64,000 nt of DNA from Pontibacter deserti. Its GTDB lineage: Bacteria; Bacteroidota; Bacteroidia; Cytophagales; Hymenobacteraceae. The position numbers and the translations under genes were made by a program. The first letter of the stretch is position 1; every line of letters starts with the position of its first letter. The stretch covers positions 1,426,001 through 1,490,000 of the forward strand of contig NZ_JALPRS010000001.1 of NCBI RefSeq assembly GCF_023630255.1. The letters are read 5' to 3'. The notes under the pieces were generated by a model, which was given only the letters and a program-made list of their open reading frames with translations, searched no databases and was not told where the DNA came from. Positions 7,836 through 47,177 of this stretch are shown piece after piece.

Positions 7836-8242
7836 AAAAGAGAAAACAGCAAGCCGTCTTATCGCCGCGAAGCAATTCGGGGAGGAAAGTCCGGGCAACG
7901 CAGAGCATCCTGCTTCCTAACGGGAAGGGTCTGTTTTGGAGACGAACCAGATACAGCCAGTGCCACAGAAAATTACCGCCAGCAGCAATGCTGGTAAGGG
8001 TGAAAAGGTGCGGTAAGAGCGCACCAGCGGTTGGGTGACCAGTCCGGCTGGGTAAACCTCAGGAGTTGAAAGACCAAATAGGCCGGCAGCGTCTTGCTTC
8101 GGCGAGACTAAGGGCTGCTCGTCCGATGTCGGTGGGTAGGTCGATGGAGCCTGTGCGCGAGTGCAGGCCTAGATAAATGATAAGACGCACGCTTTCGGGC
8201 GGAGCGACAGAACCCGGCTTACAGGCTTGCTGCTACTCTTTT
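7836..8242 (+). ncRNA. rnpB: RNase P RNA component, bacterial class A
   Basis: The catalytic RNA of RNase P, which trims tRNA 5' leaders. The conserved core is plain: GAGGAAAGTCCGGGC near 7880, a GTGCCACAGAAA block (7960s), the GGTAAGGGTGAAAAGGTGCG stretch, and the universal AGATAAATGATAAGACGC, GACAGAACCCGGCTTA end at about 8170-8221. Helix P1 closes the molecule: CAGCAAGCC near 7847-7855 pairs with GGCTTGCTG at 8224-8232, followed by CTCTTTTTATA as a termination signal. The exact ends are estimated from P1 and the promoter. Confidence 0.95.
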
Positions 8243-34666: not shown

Positions 34667-34738
34667 GGTCCGTTCGTCTAGGGGTTAGGACTTCAGATTT
34701 TCATTCTGGCAACAGGGGTTCGATTCCCCTACGGACTA
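34667..34738 (+). tRNA. tRNA-Glu (anticodon TTC)
   Basis: 72 bases. The acceptor GGTCCGT pairs with ACGGACT (one G-U at the end), the anticodon stem TCAGA/TCTGG frames the loop TTTTCAT with anticodon TTC, and the T-arm is GGGGTTCGATTCCCC. CCA is not encoded; the discriminator is A. A hairpin terminator follows at 34755-34788. Its 3' end is the model for the repeat elements at 39.4-46.8 kb. Confidence 0.97.
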
Positions 34739-34754
34739 CATGATTACCCATCAA

Positions 34755-34788
34755 AACCCGCTTATTTTATCAAATAAGTGGGTTTTTT
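34755..34788 (+). terminator. Terminator of tRNA-Glu
   Basis: AACCCGCTTATT pairs with AATAAGTGGGTT (one G-U pair) around a 6-base loop and runs into TTTTTT. Confidence 0.85.
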
Positions 34789-35093
34789 GTTTCCAGAGTA
34801 ACAGAAAAGTAACAAAAATGATCAATAGCGACGTTACTCTCCCACTTTATAACACATTATAGTTTAACGCTTCTTGTACTTCTTGGATATGAGGAGCTGT
34901 AAAATATTGTATATACTCACAGCTCTTTAAAAAGAAAAATCTACTAAATCAACTACCTTTACACTCTATTACTGAACCTAGTTTATCAGTAAGATTAGCA
35001 CCTAAAAGAAGCCTACTTTAGCAAGCTTTTCAGTGATCAATCTTTACCTTCGGCTAAGTAAATTCCATCTTATCATTTATTCACAATTAATTC
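34789..35093. other. Intergenic region behind tRNA-Glu
   Basis: About 305 bases. No gene or integrase fragment is seen. It is the likely left flank of the accessory region. Confidence 0.45.
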
Positions 35094-36137
35094 ATGAAAC
35101 ATCTCTCTACTGTGGTATTACTACAGCTCATACACAAAAGCCCACTAGCATTAGCCATGCTCTTGGCATTCACGCTCATTTCGAGCCAAGCCTTTGCCCA
35201 ACAGTTAATTTATACAGGAAAAGATCTCAGTAATAAATTCTATCTCTACAAAGGAGACAAGCTGAGGATTGAATACGCTGGGCCAGTTAAGAAAATGAAA
35301 GTATTCTTTAATGGTGCTTCAGATCCTGCTGCATCTTATGAGGATTATAACAAAAGAGCCGTTAAGCTAGAGAATATAGAACAATCGGAATGGGTTATTA
35401 CTAAAGAAGGTTTACATAAGATCTCTGTGACACAGGAGAAGGGCGATTACGACCTTAAGCTGTTCCGCTATCCTGCCCCGGGCAAAGAAAAGGCCCCTTT
35501 AACCTATACCAAAAAATATTCTTTTGCCTACGAGCCAACTGATTTTAAAGCTGATGGCTTTACAACGTCTTACAAGAAAGTTCTAACCTCTAAACTCGTT
35601 TGGGATAATGTGGACGCAGAATGTTATGTTCCAGGCGATGAGGGACTCATAGATCATTCAATTAATAAATTCAATGCCAAGAAGGGCATTATCCTGTATG
35701 ATGACACTTATAAAACGGGTCCTATCGTAGCAGGTGACAAAGTATTATCTAACCAATTGCCTTTTGCTTTACAGGCAGGTGATACCCTTACGTTTGAAAT
35801 AAAATATGATGCCCCGGCTTCTTCCGGTAGTACATTCGGCAGAGCCTGGATTGCCCGGTATGATCAGCATTATGCGTTTGATCCAGAAACAGGATCGATG
35901 CCGGATTTTATTTTAAATACAGGGATGATCAAGGCTAGTACGCCTTCCAGCCATTCGATTGTGGCGGGGGCAGACGGCATGTTCTCTTTCTTTTTTAATG
36001 GGAGTGGTACCTTCACGGTGAAAGTAGTCAGACATCCAGGAAAAAACAACAACCCTAAATTTAGAATCCCTTACGACATGGTACCTGTAAAGCGAGAAGG
36101 GACACTACTATATTTCATTGAACCAAAGCTCAAATAA
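35094..36137 (+). CDS. Exported hypothetical protein
   Basis: 347 residues, not recognised. A signal peptide (PLALAMLLAFTLISSQAFAQ, cleavage near residue 36) is preceded by an unusual 16-residue N-terminal part; the ATG at 35094 is the only one in place. The mature protein is beta-rich with three segments: LIYTGKDLSNKFYLYKGDKLRIEYAG (about 38-64), an YSFAYEPTDFKADGF part with AECYVPGDE in the middle, and a lectin- or sandwich-like C-terminus (SGTFTVKVVRHPGKNN). The repeated pattern of strands suggests tandem immunoglobulin-like or jelly-roll domains. It probably belongs to the accessory region behind tRNA-Glu. Confidence 0.65.
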   Translation: MKHLSTVVLLQLIHKSPLALAMLLAFTLISSQAFAQQLIYTGKDLSNKFYLYKGDKLRIEYAGPVKKMKVFFNGASDPAASYEDYNKRAVKLENIEQSEWVITKEGLHKISVTQEKGDYDLKLFRYPAPGKEKAPLTYTKKYSFAYEPTDFKADGFTTSYKKVLTSKLVWDNVDAECYVPGDEGLIDHSINKFNAKKGIILYDDTYKTGPIVAGDKVLSNQLPFALQAGDTLTFEIKYDAPASSGSTFGRAWIARYDQHYAFDPETGSMPDFILNTGMIKASTPSSHSIVAGADGMFSFFFNGSGTFTVKVVRHPGKNNNPKFRIPYDMVPVKREGTLLYFIEPKLK

Positions 36138-36156
36138 AGCACAACAAAAAGCAATC

Positions 36157-36192
36157 AAAAGCCCGTTACGGAAGTTTTCCTAGCGGGCTTTT
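36157..36192. terminator. Intrinsic terminator
   Basis: AAAAGCCCG / CGGGCTTTT with an 18-base loop, behind the exported protein gene. Confidence 0.75.
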
Positions 36193-36328
36193 ATATTTCA
36201 ATAAGCCTGAACATTTAGGAACTAAATGTTTCTAAATACACAAATAGTTTATTGATACTCTCTTTTTGATTAACGCTCTTTTGCTCCCGTAAAGCTCAAT
36301 ATGCCCTAACCTTGACCTTGAAAACAAG

Positions 36329-36359
36329 AAGACGCAAAAGGTATCTCTCGCGTCTTTTG
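36329..36359 (-). terminator. Intrinsic terminator of the NHL-repeat gene
   Basis: AAGACGC / GCGTCTT stem with flanking A and T runs; on the minus strand it lies about 22 bases past the stop codon of the gene at 36382. Confidence 0.7.
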
Positions 36360-36381
36360 TAATAAATCAAACTAGTAAAGC

Positions 36382-39081
36382 TTATTGCTTATGCACTTTG
36401 ATCGTTTTCACTTCTTTATCGTTGGTCACACGTACCAAGTACAGGCCCGCAGCATGAGAAGAAAGATCTATCTCTGTCGGTGCAGTACGCCTGATGTGCA
36501 TGCTGCGTACCAACCTTCCGCTAACCGAATATACTTCAACCAGCAAGCTGTTTTTGAAAATTACGTTGTCTAGTTCCAGGTAGAGTTTGCCATCCCGGGT
36601 CGGGTTTGGATACAGGCTCACACCCTTCAGCTCTTTTAAGTCATCTCCTAAACCGGTAGGTGCCTGAATGGTCAACGTCGCTGTAGCAGTGCCTTTGTAG
36701 TTGGGATCATTCACGGTGGCTAGTACCTCGTAAGTACCTTTGAGTGTAGGTGCTTCTGCTACGCCATTATAGGTAATGGTAACAGCTAAGCCTGCTGGTG
36801 TAGTGGTGGCTGTTACTACGCGTGGCTGGCCATTCTCCGGCTGCTCCAGATCATTTAAAGTAATAGTAGCAGTTGCTTTCTCCACCTGCATGGTTTGGGT
36901 AACTGGTGTGGCAGCTTCATAACACCCAGTACCAGCCTGAGTAGCTGTCACCTTTACTTCGCCAGCTCCCGTAATGTTTAGTATGTTACCATTCACTGTA
37001 GCGGGCCCTTCTGTGGTGTAGGTAATGGCCACGCCCGATGTCGTAGTGGCATTCAGCGTAATCGGTGCAGCACCATAGGTACTCGCAGCAAGGGCGTTGA
37101 AGGTAATCGTTTGCGGAGCTTTCTGTACGGTTACTGTGGCAGTAGCGGTATTGGTGTTGCCGCTTTTATCTGTCACGGTTAAGGTAACAGTGTTAGCTCC
37201 AACGTTTTCACATGAAAAACTTGTTTTAGAAAGCGCTATGTTTTGAATACCGCAGTTATCAGTAGAGTTATTATTTACCTGCTCAGGCGTGATGGTGGCT
37301 GCTCCGTTGGCATCCAGTGTTACTGAGATGTTCTTGGCTATGGCGGTCGGCTTGGTTACATCCGCAGCAGAAAGCGTTACGGCCTGCGTAATAGCTTCCG
37401 GAGAGCTGTTACCTGTTACCACGCAACGGTACTGCTTGTTGTGCAGGTCAGTGGAGTTGGCTATGGTTAACTTGGTAGTAGTAGCACCGCTGTAGATAGT
37501 ATTGTTGGTGATGTTCTGCCAAGAAGTAGTAAACACCTGCCACTGGTAAGATACAGCATTGTTAGCTGTTACCGTAAAAGACGCGCTTATGCCCGGGCAA
37601 ACGGTTGCATTCATTGGCTGTGTACCTATACTGGGAGCCGGGAGAGCAGCGCGTGTTATAGCAAGCGTATAGGTTTTAGTGATACCATTTTCGGCTGTCA
37701 CCACTATGGCTAGTGTATTCACACCCACATTTAGGCTCATAGACTTTGCCGCTCCGCTTGCACTAACTGTACCATTAACAGTTAGAGTTGCTTTGGTATG
37801 GCTGAGAGTAGGTGTAATGTTAACAGTTGTTATTTCATTCGCTACTGAAGCGGTATAGCTGGTTGTAGCAGCAGCAAAAGCAGGTGAAAGTGTTCCTGTA
37901 GATAAGGTAAAAGATTTTAGATCAGCATCCGGTGACAAAACTACATTGTCTACCTTACGGATACGGTGACGTATCTCTTCTACGATGTAAAGATTATCCC
38001 TATTATCTAAGGCAACAGAATTTGGACGGATAACCATAGCATTAATTGCTAACACATTCTCTTCTTCACTTCCAGACCATGCACTACCGGTCCCCGTTAA
38101 TGTTGTGATTATACCATCAGTAGTTACTTTCCGCACTCGGTAATTTTGAGAGTCTGCAATATATAGAATGCCACTACCATGGACTGCTAAGCCATTGGGA
38201 TTATATAACTGAGCATTGATTGCCAATCCACCATCACCGTTATATCCAGATGTTCCAGTTCCTACTACGGTGGTGATGACACCATTCGTGCTGACTTTCC
38301 GGATTCTATGATTACCATATTCCGAAACATAAAGATTACCAGCGTCATCCAAAGCAATTTCAACAGGATTGTTAAATTGAGCATTTACTGCCTGCCCGCC
38401 ATCTCCACTGAAACCTCTTACCCCAGTTCCTGCAACCGTAGTGACTACACCATTCGTGCTAATTTTACGAATCCTATGATTATTATAATCTGCAACGAAG
38501 AGATTGCCATTCTTATCAAATGTTAATCCCCAAGGCGTGTTAAACAGCGCATTAACTGCCTGCCCCCCATCTCCACTATAGCCTTGCCCATAACCAGCTA
38601 TTGTCGAAATGATGCCATTTGTACCAATTCTACGGATCATATTTCCCGTTGAAAAATAAACGTTTCCTGCAGCATCTACAGCAACTCCCAGGGGATGATA
38701 TATTTGCGCATTTATTGCTAAGCCACCGTCACCAGTAAACCCTCCAGTTCCGGTTCCTGCTATTGTAGTTATGATACCATTTGTATCTACTTTTCGAATT
38801 CGATGATTTCCCCAATCTGCAATAAAGAGATTACCAGCTGCGTCAATGGCTATGTCATTGGGATTATATAACGCGCTAGAGGTAGCAGGCCCCCCATCTC
38901 CTGCATAATAATAACCGTACCTGTTATCCGTAGTTCCGGCAATGGTAACAATGTTTTGCGCAACAGAAATAAAAGGAACCAAGAATAGGAAGCAAAGGAG
39001 TATTGGTTTCAATAGAGCATTGAGGTAGACACATCCCTTGTTTGGTCTTTGCATCGCAAAGACAATGTTAGTTGTTGTCAT
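36382..39081 (-). CDS. Secreted NHL-repeat protein with type IX sorting domain
   Basis: 899 residues. The signal peptide is LLKPILLCFLFLVPFISVAQ; a later ATG at 39054 would give a shorter N-terminus, so the start is open. The N-terminal third has six NHL-type beta-propeller repeats of about 55 residues, each with a NHRIRKV-like block and AGTG...GDGG loop. Next come a cadherin-like beta-sandwich (about 400-480), an Ig-like segment, a HYR-like segment, an MBG-like segment (TITFNALAASTYG) and finally a T9SS type A sorting domain (GVSLYPNPTRDGKLYLEL, GLYLVRVTNDKEVKTIKVHKQ). It is secreted or surface-bound through type IX secretion. Propeller proteins of this kind bind other proteins or sugars; the target is unknown. 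Confidence 0.9.
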   Translation of the reverse strand: MTTTNIVFAMQRPNKGCVYLNALLKPILLCFLFLVPFISVAQNIVTIAGTTDNRYGYYYAGDGGPATSSALYNPNDIAIDAAGNLFIADWGNHRIRKVDTNGIITTIAGTGTGGFTGDGGLAINAQIYHPLGVAVDAAGNVYFSTGNMIRRIGTNGIISTIAGYGQGYSGDGGQAVNALFNTPWGLTFDKNGNLFVADYNNHRIRKISTNGVVTTVAGTGVRGFSGDGGQAVNAQFNNPVEIALDDAGNLYVSEYGNHRIRKVSTNGVITTVVGTGTSGYNGDGGLAINAQLYNPNGLAVHGSGILYIADSQNYRVRKVTTDGIITTLTGTGSAWSGSEEENVLAINAMVIRPNSVALDNRDNLYIVEEIRHRIRKVDNVVLSPDADLKSFTLSTGTLSPAFAAATTSYTASVANEITTVNITPTLSHTKATLTVNGTVSASGAAKSMSLNVGVNTLAIVVTAENGITKTYTLAITRAALPAPSIGTQPMNATVCPGISASFTVTANNAVSYQWQVFTTSWQNITNNTIYSGATTTKLTIANSTDLHNKQYRCVVTGNSSPEAITQAVTLSAADVTKPTAIAKNISVTLDANGAATITPEQVNNNSTDNCGIQNIALSKTSFSCENVGANTVTLTVTDKSGNTNTATATVTVQKAPQTITFNALAASTYGAAPITLNATTTSGVAITYTTEGPATVNGNILNITGAGEVKVTATQAGTGCYEAATPVTQTMQVEKATATITLNDLEQPENGQPRVVTATTTPAGLAVTITYNGVAEAPTLKGTYEVLATVNDPNYKGTATATLTIQAPTGLGDDLKELKGVSLYPNPTRDGKLYLELDNVIFKNSLLVEVYSVSGRLVRSMHIRRTAPTEIDLSSHAAGLYLVRVTNDKEVKTIKVHKQ

Positions 39082-39426
39082 GAAAGGGTGGGTTGGTAGA
39101 AGTTTTACTATAGGATAAGTTTTTATGCAAAAGTATAAGTTTAATTCAATATAACAATGCCATGATCAAGCAAATAATCTATTAACTATCAGCCCATTAA
39201 ACACAACAAAGCACTATATCTCTTATAAGAATTATCTAAGCCTAAGCTCATTAAGTTTGATGGAAATGGTAGCAGAATAAAGAATCTTAAAAATATGGAT
39301 TTGCAAGAGACAAAGGAATACCTATTTCTAAGTATAAATTAGATTAATTAATTACACAAACTATAGATGATTTACCCTCAGAAATTAATTAAAAATAGAA
39401 ACACTATTTCTTAAACTTACTAATTG
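39082..39426. other. AT-rich intergenic region before repeat copy A
   Basis: About 345 AT-rich bases upstream of the NHL-repeat gene. No gene is seen, and I found no promoter I would name. Confidence 0.45.
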
Positions 39427-39530
39427 CAAACAGGTTAATATTTAAAACCCACTACGGACTACTACTATAAAAAGTCGCTCCATATTAAATGGAGCGACTT
39501 TTTTGGTTCGATAAATTTCCCCTTTGGTTA
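39427..39530 (+). repeat. tRNA-Glu-3'-end-like repeat with terminator, copy A
   Basis: Contains CTACGGACTAC (39452-39462), identical over 11 bases to the end of tRNA-Glu plus two following bases. Before it, GCAAACAGG and AAAACCC parallel the tRNA's GCAACAGGGG and TCCCC. A strong hairpin follows (AAAAAGTCGCTCCAT / ATGGAGCGACTTTTTT, 39469-39504). The unit GGTTCGATAAATTTCCCC, then TTTGGTTA (39505-39530) again resembles a T-arm and acceptor end. Copies B, C and D share these parts. Confidence 0.7.
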
Positions 39531-39542
39531 TGCATATCGAAC

Positions 39543-39752
39543 CTAATAAAAGAGTAATCTTACATTATTACTGATAAGGAAGCGGGCATTAAAAGCCACA
39601 TCTCCCAGCCATCCCCCCTGATGCCCTATCAGGTTCATCCCCGGTTTCCAATCTACCTCAATAGAAAAGAGAATATCCCGGAAAGAATACTCCAGCCCCA
39701 GGATCAATTCCACTCTTACTACGTTGTGGTGGTGGTCATCTTCATCATTGTA
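39543..39752 (-). pseudogene. C-terminal remnant of an outer-membrane beta-barrel protein
   Basis: A 69-residue frame without start, YNDEDDHHHN followed by strands VVRVELILGLEYSFRD, ILFSIEVDWKPGMNLIGHQ and DVAFNARFLI, has the usual ending of Bacteroidota porin-like barrels (x-DWKPxxNLIGxxGxW). The frame is closed by a TGA just upstream, so only the last strands survive. It overlaps in another frame the 3' end of the lipoprotein pseudogene, as if a deletion joined two genes. Confidence 0.65.
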
Positions 39753-40092
39753 TCATCATCAAACCAAGGATGCTTGTGATGGCCGTGATGATGCAGTTCC
39801 GCCTCACGACGCTTGTATTCTGCTTTCTTTCCTGCCACTCTGCCTCGGTGGCATTTTCTGCTTTAGCTGTATTTTCGTTTACCCAGGCAGAGAACTCCCC
39901 AAGCTCATTGTCTGCTTCCTGAGTGGCCTCGTTGGTTTCTCGTTAGGTATCATCTGCAGCAGCATCCATTTCCGTTTCTACCTTATTGGCTTCTTGCTCG
40001 GTCTCCCGTTGGGCCTCCTGGTTGCAGGCAAACATAAAGCCTCCTAAAGCAAAGGCCATTACAAACAATCTGATATAATCTTTTATTTTCAT
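39719..40092 (-). pseudogene. Decayed lipoprotein gene
   Basis: From the ATG at 40092, MKIKDYIRLFVMAFALGGF leads into the lipobox MFACNQ (Cys23) and a Glu-rich helix (ETEQEANKVETEMDAAADDT). Then a TAA occurs, and the same frame continues as RETNEATQEADNELGEFSAW. Further on, one base is missing after WQERK; the next frame reads AEYKRREAELHHHGHHKHP. A single C-to-T change could explain the TAA. The gene therefore carries at least one nonsense and one frameshift lesion. It was probably a small helical, His-rich lipoprotein. Confidence 0.7.
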
Positions 40093-40236
40093 AGTTTTCC
40101 TAGGGTTTGGCGTTTCTATTTATCGCAGTATAGCCTATAAATAATATGGAACTAACATTTTTAACAGTCAAATAACAAACCTCCTACACCTCTCCTAAAC
40201 AAAACCCTTTATATTTGTACCTTAAAATATCCCCTG

Positions 40237-40650
40237 TTGATACTCTACAGCGACCACATTATTAAACTGGATTACAAGCCAGCACATGACATCCTAACAG
40301 CATCCCTGCAAGTGCTGCGGGATTATGATGCAGCCGAAATCCGTAATGCCTTTCTATCTATTGTGGTCACGGTAAAAGAGTATAATGTTACGCGCTTACT
40401 GCTGGACTTTACCCGAAACACCTTGGATCTGACAGAGACAGAATACAAGCACTCCATCGCGCAGCTGACTGTTGGCTTGATGCAGACTCCGCTAGAGAAG
40501 ATTGCCCGCATCGGCACCACACATCATGTGCGGGAGCAAAAGATTTCAGGCCTTTATGAGGGAATCAAAAATGCCGTTACACTGCCGATTGCTTTTCATA
40601 TCTTTTCTGACAAAAGCACAGCTCTTGACTGGCTGCTGAAACAGGAATAA
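40237..40650 (+). CDS. STAS/SpoIIAA-like small protein, TTG start
   Basis: 137 residues, not firmly recognised. The fold pattern alternates strand and helix (HIIKLDYKPAHDILTASL, YDAAEIRNAFLSIVVTVKEYNVTRLLLDFTRNTLDLTETEY, KIARIGTTHHVREQKISGLYEG, ALDWLLKQE), as in SpoIIAA-like / STAS-type proteins found as lone regulators in Bacteroidota. No ATG lies near. TATATTTG (40210-40217), a good -7 element, ends 19 bases before the TTG at 40237, which supports that start. It has its own terminator at 40895. Confidence 0.6.
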   Translation: MILYSDHIIKLDYKPAHDILTASLQVLRDYDAAEIRNAFLSIVVTVKEYNVTRLLLDFTRNTLDLTETEYKHSIAQLTVGLMQTPLEKIARIGTTHHVREQKISGLYEGIKNAVTLPIAFHIFSDKSTALDWLLKQE

Positions 40651-40894
40651 CTGCCTTATTAAGCTTTTGTATAGGTGGTCTGACACTAACTGTTTCTGAC
40701 CCAGGTAAATACTCTTTTAATATGCTATAAAAACAAAATATAGCTATAAGCAATACTTTGTTTAAATTCGTATAAACCAGTAGAACTTTCATAAAGTGGA
40801 GCATAAAAACAAGAAGTAGTGCTGATACCCCACCCTTATACTTCTTGGTTTATGCATAAACCCTTACCCCACCCTTACAGTTGATACCCACTAA

Positions 40895-40922
40895 AGGCTC
40901 CTGTCCCGGGAGCCTCCCTTTT
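40895..40922 (+). terminator. Terminator-like hairpin
   Basis: AGGCTCC / GGAGCCT, then CCCTTTT, lying 245 bases after the STAS-like gene. Two direct ACCCCACCCTTA copies lie just upstream (near 40828 and 40867). Confidence 0.6.
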
Positions 40923-41066
40923 AAAACACAACCAACTCAATACCTGGTGACATGGCATTTAGGCAAACACTGCATTTGCTATCGCGCCGTTACACTATTT
41001 GACTCAGATTTGATTTATTTGGTGAAATAACTTTAAACTTACTGCTATCCTAGCTCTATACATACT
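40923..41066. other. Intergenic region before repeat copy B
   Basis: Together with 40651-40894 and copy B this is a gene-free stretch of about 590 bases between two convergent genes. Nothing else is recognised in it. Confidence 0.4.
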
Positions 41067-41184
41067 TCAACAGCAGCCAAATCCCTATGCAAATAGTTCG
41101 ATAATTCATTCCTTTTTACCACAGTAAAAAAGCAATTTCAAGAAAATGGAGCGGCTTTTTGGTTTGATAATTTCCCCTTTGGTT
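41067..41184 (+). repeat. tRNA-Glu-like repeat with terminator, copy B
   Basis: CAGCAGCCAAATCCCTATGC leads into AAATAGTTCGATAATTCATT and CCTTTTTACCAC, then an imperfect AAAAAAGC...GCTTTTT hairpin and GGTTTGATAATTTCCCC plus TTTGGTT (41161-41184). It shares its first 30 bases with copy D and its end with copies A and C. Confidence 0.65.
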
Positions 41185-41244
41185 GGGCTTATCTAACTTT
41201 TACAAATCGGGCGGTCATGGCAGCTATACTTCTTGGCAGCTACA

Positions 41245-42099
41245 TCACTCTTCTTTGAGAAAAGAGAGTATCTGTAGGTTCACTTTTTCCGGCTGCTCAT
41301 GATGCAGCCAATGCGTGGCCTCTTCCAAAAAGACAAGTTTCCCGTTCAGGCACCTGCCTATACTTTGCCGGGCCATGTGAGCGTCTAGCACAGCGTCCTT
41401 TTCCCCCCAGATCAGGAGTGTCGGCACTTCTACAGTCTGGTTTAAGCGGAGGCGGGAATACTTAAAAGCTCTGTACCAGTTAAGCATACCTGTCAAAGCA
41501 CCAGGCTTTCGCCAGGCCTGCCTATAAGCAGCCAGGTCTTCTTTGGCAAAGGTGGAGGAATGCGCAGTACTCGTCATAGCATGAGCCAGCAATTTATAGT
41601 TAAGCGCCTGTAGCACTACCTCCGGCAGCACCGGCACCTGGAACGCAGCTGCATACCAGCTTTTGAGCATCTGTCGCGGGCTGTGCCGGAGGTAGTGCTG
41701 CATCACGTCCGGATGTGGAATATTGAGCAAGATCAGTTTGTCAAGCAGGTGCGGGAAATGCATGCCCATAGCCCAGGCCACCACTCCTCCCCAGTCGTGT
41801 CCTATCAGCACCACCTTTTCTCTGCCCAGCTGTTGGATAAGTCCGATTATATCAGCTGTTAGCTTTTCCAGCATATAGTCCTTTACTTCTTTGGGCTTGC
41901 TGCTTAGGTTATAGCCCCGTTGGTCTGGGGCAACGATATGGTAGCCTTGGCTGGCAAAGAAAGAGAGTTGTTTATGCCAGCCATACCAGTATTCCGGGAA
42001 GCCATGCAGAAACACCAGCACCTGACCCGCTTTGTCGCCCGCTGTCGCAGCATGCAGTGTTACATCAGGCAAGTGGAAATACATATGCTCCAGGTCCAT
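41245..42099 (-). CDS. Alpha/beta hydrolase, epoxide-hydrolase-like
   Basis: 284 residues with the soluble epoxide hydrolase / haloalkane dehalogenase layout. It has HGFPEYWYGWHKQL (oxyanion loop, about 32-45), GYHIVAPDQRGYNLSSKP, VVLIGHDWGGVVAWAMG with nucleophile Asp102, a cap region (about 130-215), LIWGEKDAVLD with a probable acid, and THWLHHEQP with the catalytic His. HGxP and GHDWGG are typical of epoxide hydrolases. It is cytoplasmic. The ATG at 42099 gives the usual N-terminus; it is a single gene convergent with the STAS-like gene across repeat B. Confidence 0.88.
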   Translation of the reverse strand: MDLEHMYFHLPDVTLHAATAGDKAGQVLVFLHGFPEYWYGWHKQLSFFASQGYHIVAPDQRGYNLSSKPKEVKDYMLEKLTADIIGLIQQLGREKVVLIGHDWGGVVAWAMGMHFPHLLDKLILLNIPHPDVMQHYLRHSPRQMLKSWYAAAFQVPVLPEVVLQALNYKLLAHAMTSTAHSSTFAKEDLAAYRQAWRKPGALTGMLNWYRAFKYSRLRLNQTVEVPTLLIWGEKDAVLDAHMARQSIGRCLNGKLVFLEEATHWLHHEQPEKVNLQILSFLKEE

Positions 42100-42559
42100 G
42101 GCAGAAACAATAGTTTAAAGCGGTTTGAGTTATCTTACCTATAGCAGGTAAAATAGTTTTAACACTGCTATGCAAGCATAAAACACAGTTTAACATTTAC
42201 ACCCTATACCAATTCATGGAGTTTCATAGATCATACTCCACAGAAAAATGGTTTACATTCAGAGCATGGGTAGGGAGCCATATGTCTTATTGAAGTTTCT
42301 ATTTTGAACCATAAGCTTACCTTACCCTTTGCTCTAAATATTCTTTATTAGCAGCAAAATAACCTTGAACAATGCGCTATAACTCCATGTAGGGGGCTAC
42401 CACTATAAAACACTATCTATCTGATAAAGGCTTACTTATCTGCAAAGTTTACCTATTCCGTTTGCCGTCACATATTAACTAACCAATCACGTTTACTATA
42501 AGCGAGTGCATTGTAGCCTAGTGTATATACTTTACTTGGTACTCAACGTTGAAAATAAA
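42100..42559. other. Divergent intergenic region, no gene seen
   Basis: About 460 AT-rich bases between the alpha/beta hydrolase and the OmpA gene. No promoter could be assigned with confidence. Confidence 0.45.
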
Positions 42560-43687
42560 ATGAAAACTATCCTGCTATACTTATTATTCTGTTTATACAT
42601 AGGACAGGTTAAGGCACAGAACCTTGTACGGAACCCAAGCCTGGAGGAGTTGAAAAATTACATTGTTGGGTTCAGGGGCGTAAGTGGCACACCAGACATT
42701 GCTTCCAAAGAAGATAAAGTCATACAATATCCACCCTATCATAATGCCTACATGTCAGACTCTCCTACACGCCATATTACCAGTATACGGTTTGGGGATA
42801 TTTGCTTCTGCCAATGGTTCAGTTCCACATCCAGCGAACTGATGCAGGCACAGCTAAAAAAGCCACTTAAAAAGAATACCCAATATATTGTATCCCTTTA
42901 TACAATAAGAGCCACTGTAATTGAGCCGCCAATTAGAGAGATAACTGTCTCTTTTACCCAAAAGCCTTTACCTTTAAACAGAAAGGTATATGGACAGCAA
43001 GACCACACATTAACAAGTGAGGGTATACCTTATTTGTCTCTGACTTCAGCTGCATCACCAAGTCTTGCTTCCCGCGAATCCTGGACAAAAGTAACCGGGG
43101 TTTATAAAGCCAGAGGAGGAGAAAAGTACCTACTTATTGGCAATTTTATAGGAGCAAACAGTATCGAGTTGGATGCATTGAACCCGGATAGTCCCCGGAT
43201 TACAAGGTATAACAAGATAAAAGGAACCTACTACTGCTATGACAACATCAGTGTGATTCCTGTTTCCGCAGCCGCAAACCGGTCTGAATCAGCTATACCA
43301 GATCCAAAGCCACTATCAACTAAATTCGCCATAGGCAATACCATTACGCTGAAAGATTTAAACTTTAAAACAGGTGAATTTCAGATTTTAGAAACGGCTT
43401 ATCTTACCCTCGACTCTCTGGCGGCATTTCTTAAAACCAAGCCGGAAGCTGTAATTGCTATTCAGGGGCATACAGATGATGTTGGATCAGAAGAAGCCAA
43501 CCTCATCCTATCAGTACAGCGGGCAAAGGCTGTGATGGACTACCTGCTACAAAAAGGGATAGTGGCTGAAAGAATGACTTCAGAAGGGTATGGGGAAGCG
43601 ATGCCGAAAGCAGATAATCTAACAATAGAAAGCAGAGCAATCAACAGAAGAGTGGAGATAAAGATTCTTCATAAAAAAGGTACTTGA
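42560..43687 (+). CDS. OmpA-family outer-membrane/peptidoglycan-binding protein
   Basis: 375 residues from the ATG at 42560, which opens a signal peptide (MKTILLYLLFCLYIGQVKAQ); the GTG frame 18 codons earlier is not needed. The N-terminal half (about 21-240, NLVRNPSLEELKNYIVGFRG and YYCYDNISVIPV) is a carbohydrate-binding-like jelly-roll common in Bacteroidota. The C-terminal 110 residues are an OmpA domain (VIAIQGHTDDVGSEEANLIL, SVQRAKAVMDYLLQKG, INRRVEIKI), which binds peptidoglycan. It probably tethers the envelope or binds a surface polymer. It is monocistronic in the accessory region. Confidence 0.85.
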   Translation: MKTILLYLLFCLYIGQVKAQNLVRNPSLEELKNYIVGFRGVSGTPDIASKEDKVIQYPPYHNAYMSDSPTRHITSIRFGDICFCQWFSSTSSELMQAQLKKPLKKNTQYIVSLYTIRATVIEPPIREITVSFTQKPLPLNRKVYGQQDHTLTSEGIPYLSLTSAASPSLASRESWTKVTGVYKARGGEKYLLIGNFIGANSIELDALNPDSPRITRYNKIKGTYYCYDNISVIPVSAAANRSESAIPDPKPLSTKFAIGNTITLKDLNFKTGEFQILETAYLTLDSLAAFLKTKPEAVIAIQGHTDDVGSEEANLILSVQRAKAVMDYLLQKGIVAERMTSEGYGEAMPKADNLTIESRAINRRVEIKILHKKGT

Positions 43688-44005
43688 ACTCAAGGAGAAT
43701 TCCTGTTGGCATTTCAATGTCTGAGATAAGTGAGTTTAGGCAGCTATACAAAGAAGAGGGGTAAATGATCAGCGGTTCCTTTTAGACATCGATAAGTAAC
43801 AACTTGCGATACAATATCTACAAGCGTTTGTAAGTTAATTATCTAAGAAAGTCTTTCTTTTAGTAGAGTGGTTGTTAGACACAACAAAAGCTAGGTTTCA
43901 GAATACCATGACGTATGGAAAAGCTAACTATCACTTAACCTGAAGTATTTATTCTTTTAATCCTGAGTAATTAGACTTATTCACAATCATCAATTTACAA
44001 CGCCT
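43688..44005. other. Intergenic region, no gene seen
   Basis: About 318 bases without a protein-like frame. The exported protein that follows has no ATG in it. Confidence 0.4.
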
Positions 44006-44440
44006 ATTAAACAACTACTGCTGGTTTTCGCGCTGCTGTTTAGCACCACTGCTTCTTTTGCCCAACAAGCTGCTACAGCCACAGATCCTTGCAGGGAGCC
44101 TGTTGTAGAACTCTATGATACCAATCGGCAAAAGCTGGCCGAAGATGCTTTGCCCACTGGCAAGGTGACCGTGCTGGTTCGAAATAATCCAAGCTGCAAC
44201 AAGGACTTCACCTTTAAAGCAGAAAAGATGAAACTGTATCTGATGGATGGGGAAAAGCCCCTAACCCAGGTAGAACTGAGTGGAAACAGCTTCGACTTTA
44301 GCGGCTGGCAAAAGTATTATGCAGCTGCCGACAACATCCGTTTTGAAATCACACAGGTGAGCTTTACCTACAACAAAGGCGAAGAAACTGGTAGCTTCCC
44401 AGGGAGCGTTCACAAAAGCTGGCCCCTCAAGACAAAGTAA
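44006..44440 (+). CDS. Small exported protein without ATG (ATT at the expected start)
   Basis: 144 residues when read from the ATT at 44006. The following KQLLLVFALLFSTTASFAQQ is a complete signal peptide that would normally begin ATG-AAA, so the start has apparently changed to ATT. No ATG, GTG or TTG lies in frame between the upstream stop (43964) and this point. The first ATG is inside the mature protein at 44150 and would remove the signal. The mature part is a single beta-rich domain (TGKVTVLVRNNPSCNKDFTF, KMKLYLMDGEKPLTQVELSG, IRFEITQVSFTYNKG) of unknown family. ATT is a rare start; the gene may be translated poorly or be a young pseudogene. Confidence 0.5.
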   Translation: MKQLLLVFALLFSTTASFAQQAATATDPCREPVVELYDTNRQKLAEDALPTGKVTVLVRNNPSCNKDFTFKAEKMKLYLMDGEKPLTQVELSGNSFDFSGWQKYYAAADNIRFEITQVSFTYNKGEETGSFPGSVHKSWPLKTK

Positions 44441-44581
44441 CCTGAGCAGGATAAAGCTTACCTAAGCTTACTACTACTGCAAGTAAACTTTATAAAAAAC
44501 TACACGAGGTATACGCTTTATCTGGGACTATTTTAGCTATTAAAAGTTAATGGAAGTACTATTCTAAAATTTAAGATCACT

Positions 44582-44686
44582 GTGTAATTGGTTCAATAAT
44601 TATATCCTTTGGTCTACTACAGTAAAAAAGCCACTTCATACCAAATGGAGTGGCTTTTTGGGTTCGATAAATTTCCCCTTTGGTTA
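44582..44686 (+). repeat. tRNA-Glu-like repeat with terminator, copy C
   Basis: GGTTCAATAATTATATCC, then TTTGGTCTACTACAG (44590-44621), a hairpin AAAAAAGCCACTTCATA / TGGAGTGGCTTTTT (to about 44659), and GGTTCGATAAATTTCCCC then TTTGGTTA (44661-44686). It lies about 140 bases behind the ATT-start gene. The first unit resembles copy D, the last is identical to copy A. Confidence 0.7.
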
Positions 44687-44748
44687 GAGTCTGAAGTTGT
44701 TTGACCTATAGAATACAACTTCTACACTTCAGTATAGGAGTCTGCACG
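44687..44748. other. Spacer between repeat copy C and the small minus-strand frame
   Basis: With copy C and the small frame this completes the 511-base stretch between the ATT-start gene and the AraC gene. Nothing else is seen here. Confidence 0.35.
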
Positions 44749-44895
44749 TTAATGTTTTCTTAGAGGAGGCTTTCGGGCAAGGTCATGTCTTCCCATGCGA
44801 GAAACAAAATCGTACTTCTTGCTCCAGTTTGCAATCCACTCTCTTTCGCCCAACAAGTTCTGTTTATCTGTTATATTTGGCCCAGCAAGGCCCAT
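44749..44895 (-). CDS. Possible 48-residue small protein
   Basis: A short frame from the ATG at 44895 (MGLAGPNITDKQNLLGEREW, then IANWSKKYDFVSRMGRHDL, a basic end ARKPPLRKH). Amino acid use is protein-like, with a Trp-rich, charged helix, and no frame of this kind is expected by chance, but a short length leaves it uncertain. It is divergent from the AraC gene. No family is recognised; it could also be a remnant of a longer gene. Confidence 0.35.
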   Translation of the reverse strand: MGLAGPNITDKQNLLGEREWIANWSKKYDFVSRMGRHDLARKPPLRKH

Positions 44896-44951
44896 AGTGC
44901 CTACACGCCGTATCACTAAATGACTGAAAGCTAAAACAGCAGGCAGAGAAA

Positions 44952-45839
44952 TTGAGAACTATAAGATTTGATAAGACTAAGTGTGGTGTAGAGGTCTTGC
45001 TTCGGACAGGTTCTGGCAATGAAATAAAAGGAGCCTACACCGACACAGAAGTATACAACACCGATTACTTTGAGATCCTGATTTTCAGAAAAGCAAAAGG
45101 TTTTGTCGTACTAAACCAGCGAAAGATAGAGCTTACCGATAATACCATTGTCTTTATTTCTCCTTTTCAGAAGCGACAATGGAAGCTTGATCCGGATCAC
45201 CTGGACTTTACGTTTCTTATATTTCAGGAAGATTTCCTCAACGACTTCTTTGCTGACAAGCTGTTTACGTACCGGTTGCTATACTTTTACCAACTGGATT
45301 ACCCGCTGAGCATGAAGGTCACTGCTGAGTATATCCAAAAAGCCTGTAGTACCCTAACCGAAATTCATACAGAACTCAGAGATGCCAATCCGGACAGTGA
45401 ACACCTCATCCGTTCCCTGCTCTATTACTTACTGCTTAAGCTCAACAGGGATTACGCCCGGCTAAACAACCTCCCACTCGATAAGCCGGAGAACAATTAT
45501 GCCTACCAGTTCAAGAAGCTGCTGGAGCTGCACATAAAGGAAAAGCAAAGGATCAGTGAGTATGCGGAGCTCTTAGGTATAAGCAGGATCACGCTAAATA
45601 AAGCGGTACAGGTGCAGTTTAACGTAACGGCCATGCATTTACTCAAGCAGCGGCTACTCTTTGAGATTAAGAATTACCTGATCCATTCCGGTTTAACAGT
45701 AGCCGAGATTGCGCACGAACTCCACTTCTCAGAGCCCAACCATCTGATGCGCTTTTTCAAAACCCAAACCGGACAGACCACATCAGAATTCCTTGCAGAT
45801 TATCAAAATGGTAGCAAGGTCAATAGCTTTGGTAGCTAA
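44952..45839 (+). CDS. AraC-family transcriptional regulator, TTG start
   Basis: 295 residues. The N-terminal half is a cupin-like sensor (YFEILIFRKAKGFVVLNQRKI, IVFISPFQKRQWKL), the C-terminal 100 residues an AraC/XylS DNA-binding domain with two helix-turn-helix units (ISEYAELLGISRITLNKAVQ; LTVAEIAHELHFSEPNHLMR then FFKTQTGQTTSEFL). The start is TTG at 44952, as no ATG is available before the sensor domain. The MBL hydrolase gene begins 59 bases downstream with its own promoter-like element, and is the natural target for regulation. The inducer is unknown. Confidence 0.88.
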   Translation: MRTIRFDKTKCGVEVLLRTGSGNEIKGAYTDTEVYNTDYFEILIFRKAKGFVVLNQRKIELTDNTIVFISPFQKRQWKLDPDHLDFTFLIFQEDFLNDFFADKLFTYRLLYFYQLDYPLSMKVTAEYIQKACSTLTEIHTELRDANPDSEHLIRSLLYYLLLKLNRDYARLNNLPLDKPENNYAYQFKKLLELHIKEKQRISEYAELLGISRITLNKAVQVQFNVTAMHLLKQRLLFEIKNYLIHSGLTVAEIAHELHFSEPNHLMRFFKTQTGQTTSEFLADYQNGSKVNSFGS

Positions 45840-45857
45840 GCACCAGAGCAGCGCCCC

Positions 45858-45865
45858 TACCTTTG
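45858..45865 (+). promoter_or_regulatory. Candidate -7 element for the MBL gene
   Basis: TACCTTTG fits TAnnTTTG and lies 33 bases before the ATG at 45899. A TTTG occurs 26 bases upstream, slightly far for a -33 box. Confidence 0.5.
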
Positions 45866-45898
45866 TATTGAATTTAAGAATATTAAAATCAATACGAT

Positions 45899-46666
45899 AT
45901 GGCAACAAGAGCAAGTATACAGTTAGTCCGAAATGCAACGCTGGTAATCAATTATGCTGGTAAGAAGATACTGGTAGACCCTATGCTGATGCCGAAGGAT
46001 TCTTTTGATCCGCTGGCCGGCAAGGCAAGAAACCCGATGGTTGATTTACCTTCGTCTATCGAAGAGATTGTGAAGGACGTGGACCTGGTGCTGGTAACGC
46101 ATACTCACCCGGACCACTTCGATACAGTGGCCATTCAAACACTTAGTAAATCCATTAAACTGATCAACCAGCCTGCCGACGAGGAATACTTTCGGAAGGA
46201 AAGTTTTATTAATTCCGAGACCTTACAGGACAGCACTGTTTGGAACGGCATCACCATCCACAGGACAGGTGGCGAGCACGGCAGCGGCGAGATTCTGAAG
46301 CAAATGGGCACCGTTTCCGGTTTTGTTCTGAAGGCAGAAAGCCAGCCTACCATCTATATCGCGGGCGATACTATTTGGATAGACGAAGTGGAACAGGCGA
46401 TTAAAAAATATAGGCCTGATTACATTGTGACAAACTCTGGTGGCGCTGCTTTCCCTGGCTTTGAAGCAACGCCTATTCTTAAAGACGAAGAACAGACGAT
46501 GTCATTGATACAGGAGAGTGGTGAGGCCAAAGTGATAGCTGTACACATGGATGCACTCGACCATTGCCGTACTACGAGAAACTCGCTACGTGAAAAGGCA
46601 AATGAGTTGAACATCGGAGAAAACAAACTGCTCATTCCGCAGGATGGTGAAGTCATAGTGCTCTAG
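45899..46666 (+). CDS. MBL-fold metallohydrolase
   Basis: 255 residues, cytoplasmic. It has the UlaG-like metallo-beta-lactamase fold: RNATLVINYAGKKILVDPML, VLVTHTHPDHFD (HxHxDH zinc motif), TGGEHGSGEI, IYIAGDTIW (bridging Asp), VTNSGGAAFPGFEATPIL and VIAVHMDALDHCRTTR. The family acts on phosphodiesters, lactones and related esters; nothing here fixes the substrate. It lies 59 bases behind an AraC regulator on the same strand, with a candidate promoter in the gap, suggesting AraC-controlled induction, for instance by a small aromatic or quinone compound. That last point is inference. Confidence 0.87.
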   Translation: MATRASIQLVRNATLVINYAGKKILVDPMLMPKDSFDPLAGKARNPMVDLPSSIEEIVKDVDLVLVTHTHPDHFDTVAIQTLSKSIKLINQPADEEYFRKESFINSETLQDSTVWNGITIHRTGGEHGSGEILKQMGTVSGFVLKAESQPTIYIAGDTIWIDEVEQAIKKYRPDYIVTNSGGAAFPGFEATPILKDEEQTMSLIQESGEAKVIAVHMDALDHCRTTRNSLREKANELNIGENKLLIPQDGEVIVL

Positions 46667-46697
46667 TCTCAAACCTGTATTTACCTTTCAAAATAAC

Positions 46698-46797
46698 GCT
46701 CCACAGCAGCCAAATCTCTGTGCAAATAGTTCAATAATTCCATCCTTTGGACTACTGAAAGGGAAAAGTAAATATCAGATTTGCTTTTCCCTTTTTC
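46698..46797 (+). repeat. tRNA-Glu-like repeat with terminator, copy D
   Basis: CAGCAGCCAAATCTCTGTGC leads into AAATAGTTCAATAATTCC and ATCCTTTGGACTAC (to 46755). GGACTAC is the tRNA's last bases. A hairpin AAAGGGAAAAG / CTTTTCCCTTTT follows. The trailing GGTTCGATAAATTTCCCC unit is not present, so this copy is shorter. It lies 31 bases behind the MBL gene. Confidence 0.65.
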
Positions 46798-47177
46798 TTT
46801 TGCGCTAAAAACTGCTGCACGAGGCTGGAAAGGACAAAAAAGCCATTCACCTTTGTCGTTCAATAATCTTCATTTTCCCCTGCTTTCTTTGGTTTACTTG
46901 TAGTTGGCTAATTCCATGTACCCTGCTAGTAGTAAAGACAACTTATGATCCATAGTCACTTTTCTGATCTACAGTGATAATGCTAATAAGTTTCAAGAGA
47001 GCTTCACTACCGCCACCCAACTAATTTTCTAACTACTTAAAATAGAGCCAAGGTCAATAAAGTCTGACAGCTATCGTTGATTACAAGAAGCACAAGCGGT
47101 AATAATCCGGTTAACAAGAGGTACCAATCAATATATTTATGTCTATATTTACTACCAACATCAACTAAACTAAAGAC
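46798..47177. other. Intergenic region, no gene seen
   Basis: About 380 bases with no recognisable gene, between repeat copy D and the membrane protein gene. It is the likely right end of the accessory region. Confidence 0.4.

Follow-up and report, generated by a model that had tools for sequence, protein, structure and literature searches.

What builds a row of similar repeats behind a single tRNA gene? The question is raised by a 64,000-nucleotide stretch of Pontibacter deserti DNA (contig NZ_JALPRS010000001.1, positions 1,426,001 to 1,490,000; hereafter the window), in which a tRNA-Glu gene is followed by four repeat elements, termed copies A to D, with genes between them. Our reading, to which we assign a probability of roughly 0.8, is that the repeats are recombined attachment (att) sites of elements whose integration target is the 3' end of tRNA-Glu and whose integrating enzyme is a large serine recombinase (LSR), and that cassettes were stacked there stepwise. 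It is drawn from features visible in the sequences, namely the anatomy of the junctions, a difference in motif spacing, the orientation of the repeats, the tRNA gene at the head, LSR genes beside tRNA-Glu in relatives, and apparent transfers that end at the motif CTAC. The parts of the locus on which the argument turns are, in window coordinates:

34667..34739, plus strand: tRNA-Glu (TTC), found by ARAGORN and Rfam; head of the array
34740..34840, plus strand: right half of type III behind tRNA-Glu, a terminator hairpin and then GAGTAACAGAAAAGTAAC, assigned from sequence
39427..39545, plus strand: copy A, a tRNA-Glu end joined to a right half of type I (model Pp1, 61 bits)
41067..41200, plus strand: copy B, left half and right half of type I (model P, 41 bits; Pp1, 43 bits)
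44568..44701, plus strand: copy C, left half, core CTAC at 44614-44617 and right half of type I (P, 46 bits; Pp1, 64 bits)
46698..46755, plus strand: copy D, left half ending in core CTAC at 46752-46755 (P, 49 bits)
46756..46879, plus strand: LSR-type right half behind copy D, with terminator GGGAAAAG..CTTTTCCC (model Pp2, 109 bits)
46681..46863, minus strand: open reading frame (ORF) of 60 aa, a remnant of a recombinase C-terminus (FSAKEKGKSKSDIYFSLS) in frame with a left-half tail (VVQRMELLNYLHRDLAAVERYFER)

An initial annotation, made from the letters of the window, had placed four elements behind tRNA-Glu, at 39427-39530, 41067-41184, 44582-44686 and 46698-46797. They are present as placed and exceed chance: GGTTCGATAAATTTCCCC has two matches at up to three mismatches against 0.06 expected, and GTTCRATAATTCCATCCTTTGGACTAC two against 0.00, while CTACGGACTAC taken alone is weak (two matches at up to one mismatch, 0.54 expected). 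Copy D does lack the last unit, as had been remarked. The right half is of type III behind tRNA-Glu, of type I in copies A to C and of the LSR type at copy D. The proposal that the units are copies of the tRNA end holds for copy A, the only one of the four with a literal tRNA-Glu end (CTACGGACTAC at 39452-39462, followed by right half type I at 39463-39545), but not for copies B, C and D, in which the unit is a half-site with GTTCGAT lying 5 nt further from CTAC. Alignment with other Pontibacter genomes, which the annotation had suggested, succeeds for copies B and C with copies from many genomes over ∼134 bp.

In the alignment, a left half (consensus ..CAAATCCCTGTGGAAATGGTTCGATAATTCCATCCTTTGGTCTAC) precedes a terminator hairpin, after which comes GGTTCGATAAATTTCCCCTTTGG. 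Copy C as BLAST query has matches in 39 of 50 Pontibacter genomes, and a covariance model matches 50 of 50 at E<=0.01, the weak matches being generic terminators; in a family sample, the other genera g2 and g6 are matched at E<=1e-8. Judged by sequence, the elements are putative attachment-site junctions in which CTAC links a conserved left half with a right half drawn from a small set, and the T-arm/acceptor half of tRNA-Glu (GTTCGAT-11 nt-CTAC) is a candidate attB-type left half.

The spacing from GTTCGAT to CTAC separates the two kinds of left half. All 49 tRNA-Glu genes have 11 nt, whereas 16 nt is found in 70 of the 74 left halves that were scored, from a total of 97 (the remaining 23 have no scorable motif and were left out of this count). 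A duplicate locus, L073 (= L145), was removed from the spacing, open-frame and orientation/hairpin counts; G, C and L numbers are our handles for genomes, contigs and loci. Since many rows are related and loci were picked around matches and around one tRNA-Glu per genome, these and the following counts are not independent. According to the available text of the published LSR model (PMC3783163), the zinc-ribbon motif lies 5 bp nearer the centre in attB than in attP, and the 5-bp shift between tRNA half and left half matches this difference, on the left side only. Counted from a centre placed at the TA of CTAC, the tRNA half has C11, G15, T17 and T18, and the left half has G20, T22 and T23; these positions are named for A118-type sites in the same text (PMC3783163), the numbering used here being our own. 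One left half (L102:4953-5113) has tRNA-type spacing (GTTCGATTCCCCTACGGACTAC) and looks like a hybrid of a left half and a tRNA end.

A recombinase of the required kind is encoded in relatives. Directly behind tRNA-Glu, and convergent with it, lies a gene of ∼590 aa whose frame ends within the antisense tRNA (..FSLPVARRGIEPLL). Its product matches the Pfam families Resolvase (PF00239, 1.3e-28) and Recombinase (PF07508, 3.2e-11), both above cut-off, and the TP901-1 and A118 integrase structures in PDB; the zinc ribbon scores 19.4 bits, below the cut-off of 25.3. The best NCBIfam family is CcrB (E 9.7e-31), at 107 bits and thus far under the cut-off of 900. Nineteen such genes, with at least 59% identity over ∼500 aa or more, occur in 15 of 50 Pontibacter genomes: 13 adjoin an intact tRNA-Glu, four a tRNA-Glu 3' relic, one a tRNA cut by a gap and one a contig end. 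The initial annotation had invoked integrases that leave partial tRNA copies; the likely recombinase is of the serine type and is present in relatives.

Five elements carry a common module of the LSR gene, an ORF of 143-148 aa and an ORF of 313 aa. Neither the 143-aa nor the 313-aa ORF of the module in genome G007 has a Resolvase match in Pfam, and the G007 element also holds a type I restriction system adjoining the recombinase. The 313-aa protein has a weak MerR-like match (MerR_1 in 9 of 14 homologues, best E 0.002); its predicted structure is weak, with a mean predicted local distance difference test score of 65, and gives no Foldseek match at E<=0.001, with MerR regulators among the top rows. 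Sister LSRs of 38-47% identity were seen at L170 (G043:C1 228 kb), L171 (G010:C8 247 kb) and L168 (G044:C19 29 kb). The 3' end of the gene is at tRNA-Met in two of them and ∼75 nt from tRNA-Met in one, perhaps marking a parallel family with another tRNA target.

The left half and the recombinase gene are also connected by reading frame. The LSR-type right half behind copy D overlaps a decayed recombinase 3' end on the minus strand; in tblastn, positions 46877-46761 match recombinase residues 539-579 at 48.8% (E 3e-6). At junctions of a left half with an LSR-type right half, the recombinase end is in frame with the left-half tail in six of seven cases, judged by eye. Read on its minus strand, the left half gives VDQRMELSNHFHRDLAALEEYL-like sequence in most copies, and 61 of 73 copies have no stop in this frame over at least 20 codons, compared with 0 of 73 and 17 of 73 in the other two minus frames. 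A third-codon-position test of the tail was weak (permutation p 0.09; synonymous fraction 0.25 versus 0.19 expected); identical rows were merged in both tests. Because the two frames join, integration at tRNA-Glu would change the C-terminus of the recombinase.

Two other ideas about these sequences were tried and abandoned. A full-length protein ending in the left-half minus-strand peptide was sought, and the frames listed were all of ∼100 aa or less. Copy D was considered as an attR with the original chromosomal flank, until the DNA behind it turned out to be a recombinase end; the prediction that this DNA follows tRNA-Glu elsewhere was true in 9 of 49.

The junctions are also ordered. Among the fetched loci, neighbouring junctions are co-oriented in 55 of 55 cases, and tRNA-Glu lies upstream in the same orientation in 28 of 29. 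Outside the window, the P. deserti genome has a further copy at C1:842.5 kb, with no tRNA in a 19-kb stretch around it; a second tRNA-Glu (C1:875.3 kb, minus strand) lies upstream of that copy in the same orientation, and weaker junctions also occur between 815 and 857 kb of C1. The strong copies in this genome thus form two co-oriented clusters, each behind a tRNA-Glu, and not the scatter over non-tRNA loci that the initial annotation had named as contrary evidence.

The same right halves follow tRNA genes and repeats. Behind 49 tRNA-Glu genes, types I, III, IV, LSR and other number 5, 4, 10, 9 and 21; behind the 74 scored left halves they number 20, 11, 14, 4 and 24, with one sequence too short. 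As a control, 951 of 1000 random CTAC sites were typed as other. A terminator-like hairpin lies within 35 nt of CTAC in 49 of 49 tRNA-Glu genes and 72 of 73 left-half junctions, versus 281 of 1000 random places. The terminator alone was discarded as evidence, the weak covariance matches being generic terminators and the covariation term 0.06. In the element copies L037 and L041, what lies between GTTCGA and the TTATCGAAC of the type I right half seems to be inverted, with AACCGAAGGGG in place of CCCCTTTGGTT.

To locate the boundaries of shared DNA, 82 inter-junction segments were compared, giving 29 cross-genome pairs with a common stretch of at least 200 bp, and boundaries were examined in 11 locus pairs. 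Divergence was gauged by recA (nucleotides), which replaced a 91-aa gene that overstated species divergence; the recA row for G031 was dropped. G014 and G045, two species that both have intact LSR genes, share 24.8 kb at 99.2% against 90.0% for recA, and the block ends exactly at ..CCTTTGGTCTAC (CTAC), after which the right halves differ; two further common blocks measure ∼7.7 kb at ∼95%. Since the large block contains an internal junction, a composite appears to have moved. A 5.3-kb cassette is common to G045 and G049 (90.9%; recA 84.8%), with homology stopping at CTAC on both sides, so that the breakpoints fall at CTAC in both comparisons. For the window itself, the counterpart of cassette C-D in G031 reaches a junction at both ends (77.8% and 68.8%), where the G031 contig ends. 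The AraC gene of this cassette has four equal-scoring G031 matches near contig ends (C2 1-2290, C2 1073.5 kb, C5 625.7 kb and C6 533.5 kb), as if identical cassette copies had broken the assembly.

Several observations weigh against our reading. At E<=1e-20 the genome of the window gives no match to the LSR, which would make its array non-autonomous or a relic; the initial remark that no integrase is visible stands to this extent, though a decayed serine recombinase end does lie behind copy D. Since that DNA proved to be a recombinase end, it did not reveal an unoccupied site, and no vacant attB turned up; in the genomes compared by eye, ∼12 kb or more separates the flanking genes. Within the window, copy A has no left half recognised by the left-half model, and the core of copy B is mutated to TTTACC. 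The right halves show no evident inverted copy of the motif at the mirror position. If TA, the best fit to the published numbering, is the centre, it is palindromic and would not itself fix orientation. No evident resemblance connects types I, III and IV with the LSR-type right half, and a single LSR binding all of them is conjectural. One array, L123 (G035:C1 4280.8-4300.7 kb), is opposite to its nearest tRNA-Glu, the sole such exception. Only some of the 11 boundary-examined pairs end at junctions on both sides. The C-D genes occur in 11 other fetched loci, with likeness reaching the junctions only in G031 and restricted to the two genes in ten. In G010 and G035, a common segment shows 78.6% versus 82.8% for recA, no excess, and may simply have descended vertically. 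Vertical inheritance, which the initial annotation had set against a mobile origin, could still apply to individual segments, as the C-D genes are found outside junctions in other species as well. Lastly, G042 and G043 (90.0%; recA 84.7%), like G003 and G011, have common cargo with right halves of differing types, which implies that ends are exchangeable apart from cargo.

Common cargo with unlike right halves would also be expected under another history, in which LSR elements assembled the stack on one occasion and homologous recombination between the repeated halves is all that reshuffles it today. The left halves do offer ∼50 bp of similar sequence for such exchange, and the absence of an LSR match in the window's own genome fits as well. 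Set against this, two genomes with intact LSR genes have in common the 24.8-kb block at 99.2%, which stops right at CTAC and is followed by unlike right halves, and we regard homologous reshuffling as the sole current process as rather unlikely.

The left end of copy A bears on a different alternative. LSR-type right halves at five loci (L152, L156, L161, L162 and L174:4920-5120) stand after a bare tRNA-Glu 3' end and unrelated DNA, as in copy A. Together, copy A and these LSR heads suggest that integration of another kind also took place at this tRNA, perhaps by a different integrase. Alternatively, the entire tandem stack might have been assembled by several unrelated tyrosine integrases, each leaving a tRNA-Glu 3' end; copy A and five LSR-bearing or own-genome junctions with a short tRNA end after unrelated DNA would then be typical products, and the short repeats carried by right halves of types III and IV could be arm sites. 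We think this improbable, since the left half is not a tRNA copy, has the 5-bp shift of LSR sites and continues the LSR reading frame, and the genes found beside tRNA-Glu are of the serine type in an LSR search, no search having been aimed at tyrosine integrases. That the elements are an ordinary dispersed extragenic terminator-bearing repeat with no tie to integration is scarcely credible, for its genus-wide (50 of 50 by the covariance model, weak matches being generic terminators) and mostly intergenic occurrence is outweighed by orientation (55 of 55), the tRNA-Glu head (28 of 29), the same right halves behind the tRNA, homology ending at CTAC and the open antisense frame.

The stepwise accretion at tRNA-Glu that had been proposed from the window is supported by the single orientation, the tRNA head, the right halves common to tRNA and repeats, and the transfers ending at the core. 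In the integration scheme that we favour, each junction would be a fusion, within CTAC, of a right half (R) to a left half that is either the tRNA end (attB type) or a P half whose motif lies 5 bp further out. An excised circle would carry P/R, and its integration would convert tRNA/R0 into tRNA/R1-cargo-P/R0. Because the tRNA half stays on the left, newcomers would enter beside the tRNA and push older ones away, giving a growing stack of one orientation. The right halves begin with a terminator, which would close tRNA transcription again after every insertion. Autonomous elements would have the recombinase gene at their left end, convergent with the tRNA, and integration would swap its last codons, antisense tRNA sequence replacing the P-half tail. 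Segments lacking a recombinase would be non-autonomous cassettes that either depend on a recombinase acting in trans or travel with an autonomous neighbour as a composite. Recombinase activity, its action in trans on types I, III and IV, the order of insertion and the functions of terminator and tail are all what we infer here. More speculatively, and only as a tentative proposal, the system might be a serine-recombinase counterpart of the integron: tRNA-Glu would be a permanent docking head, small cassettes with a common P half and interchangeable terminator-bearing right halves would be stacked by an LSR in trans, and the LSR would read its own state through its C-terminus, a P-half tail in circle or stack and antisense tRNA codons at the tRNA.

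The segments between the junctions, and the genes in them, are as follows:

34740..39462: first segment, 4.7 kb
35094-36137, plus strand: ORF in the first segment, no Pfam family
36382-39081, minus strand: ORF in the first segment with NHL repeats and a Por secretion tail
39463..41118: cassette A-B, 1.7 kb
40237-40650, plus strand: ORF in cassette A-B, no Pfam or NCBIfam family, with an apparently broken stretch upstream
41119..44617: cassette B-C, 3.5 kb
41245-42099, minus strand: alpha/beta hydrolase in cassette B-C
42506-43687, plus strand: OmpA-family protein in cassette B-C
44150-44440, plus strand: small ORF in cassette B-C
44618..46755: cassette C-D, 2.1 kb
44952-45839, plus strand: AraC-family regulator in cassette C-D
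45899-46666, plus strand: metallo-beta-lactamase-fold hydrolase in cassette C-D

Elsewhere in the window, a bacterial RNase P RNA of class A lies at 7846-8237 (Rfam RF00010, 268 bits).

Among known systems, the closest precedent is the ssrA islands of Dehalococcoides, followed by the staphylococcal cassette chromosome (SCC). As described in the available text of PMC3146451, the Dehalococcoides islands likewise lie in tandem downstream of one tRNA-like gene with short direct-repeat borders, and have a CcrB-like serine recombinase beside attL, on the reverse strand, with its 3' end over the att site; islands without a recombinase are read there as cis-mobilizable elements. The same text raises the possibility that the DsiB recombinase works only from the circular form, or when lying behind an island from which it gains its 3' fragment, and by analogy the Pontibacter left halves look like such DsiB-type 3' fragments. 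The target differs, being tmRNA in Chloroflexota there and tRNA-Glu in Bacteroidota here, and so does the module, which according to that text comprises a small serine recombinase, DsiA, and RecF-, ParB- and Mom-like genes, in contrast to the LSR with ∼145-aa and 313-aa ORFs in Pontibacter. Compared with the islands so described, Pontibacter has cassettes down to ∼1.7 kb and interchangeable, terminator-bearing right halves.

Further parallels come from other groups of elements. SCC elements, moved by large serine recombinases (Ccr), lie in tandem as composite islands at the 3' end of a single gene, rlmH, and some lack a recombinase. The Pontibacter arrays share the large serine recombinase, the tandem stack and the recombinase-less elements, with CcrB as best family and, in one element, a type I restriction system beside the LSR; they differ in their target, tRNA-Glu and not rlmH, and in the LSR score of 107 bits against the CcrB cut-off of 900. 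In streptococci, cis-mobilizable elements (CIMEs) and integrative and mobilizable elements (IMEs) reportedly accrete at tRNA genes and at other genes, where segments that have att sites at their borders and no recombinase are stacked beside autonomous ones. The recombinase-less Pontibacter segments, bounded by putative att junctions, and the G014/G045 block with its internal junction appear similar, whereas the many small segments with one left half and few alternative right halves do not. In integrons, small gene cassettes line up in one orientation behind a fixed head by means of the tyrosine integrase IntI and folded attC sites; the array is alike, but Pontibacter has a serine recombinase, double-stranded half-sites and a tRNA gene as head. 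Tycheposons are small cargo elements that gather at tRNA genes, as here, with a tyrosine recombinase and in another host group.

Literature searches for Pontibacter with serine recombinase, and for a cassette chromosome with a serine recombinase in Bacteroidetes at a tRNA, yielded no paper in the collection searched, and the available text of the Pontibacter korlensis genome paper reports islands and mentions neither tRNA nor recombinase. The initial annotation had considered the repeat as a mobile-cassette border to be new; given the precedent in the available account of the Dehalococcoides ssrA islands, this does not hold for the principle, and what is new is the very small cassettes with interchangeable terminator-bearing ends and the conserved recombinase tail encoded in the left half.

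A puzzling repeat thereby becomes a mapped gene-acquisition system of a whole genus. It brings ready att sites together with recombinases, at a time when LSRs are wanted as DNA-integration tools. It also provides dozens of natural sequences with which to approach the question posed for DsiB in 2011, whether such a recombinase is active only with a 3' end supplied by the circle or by a neighbouring island.

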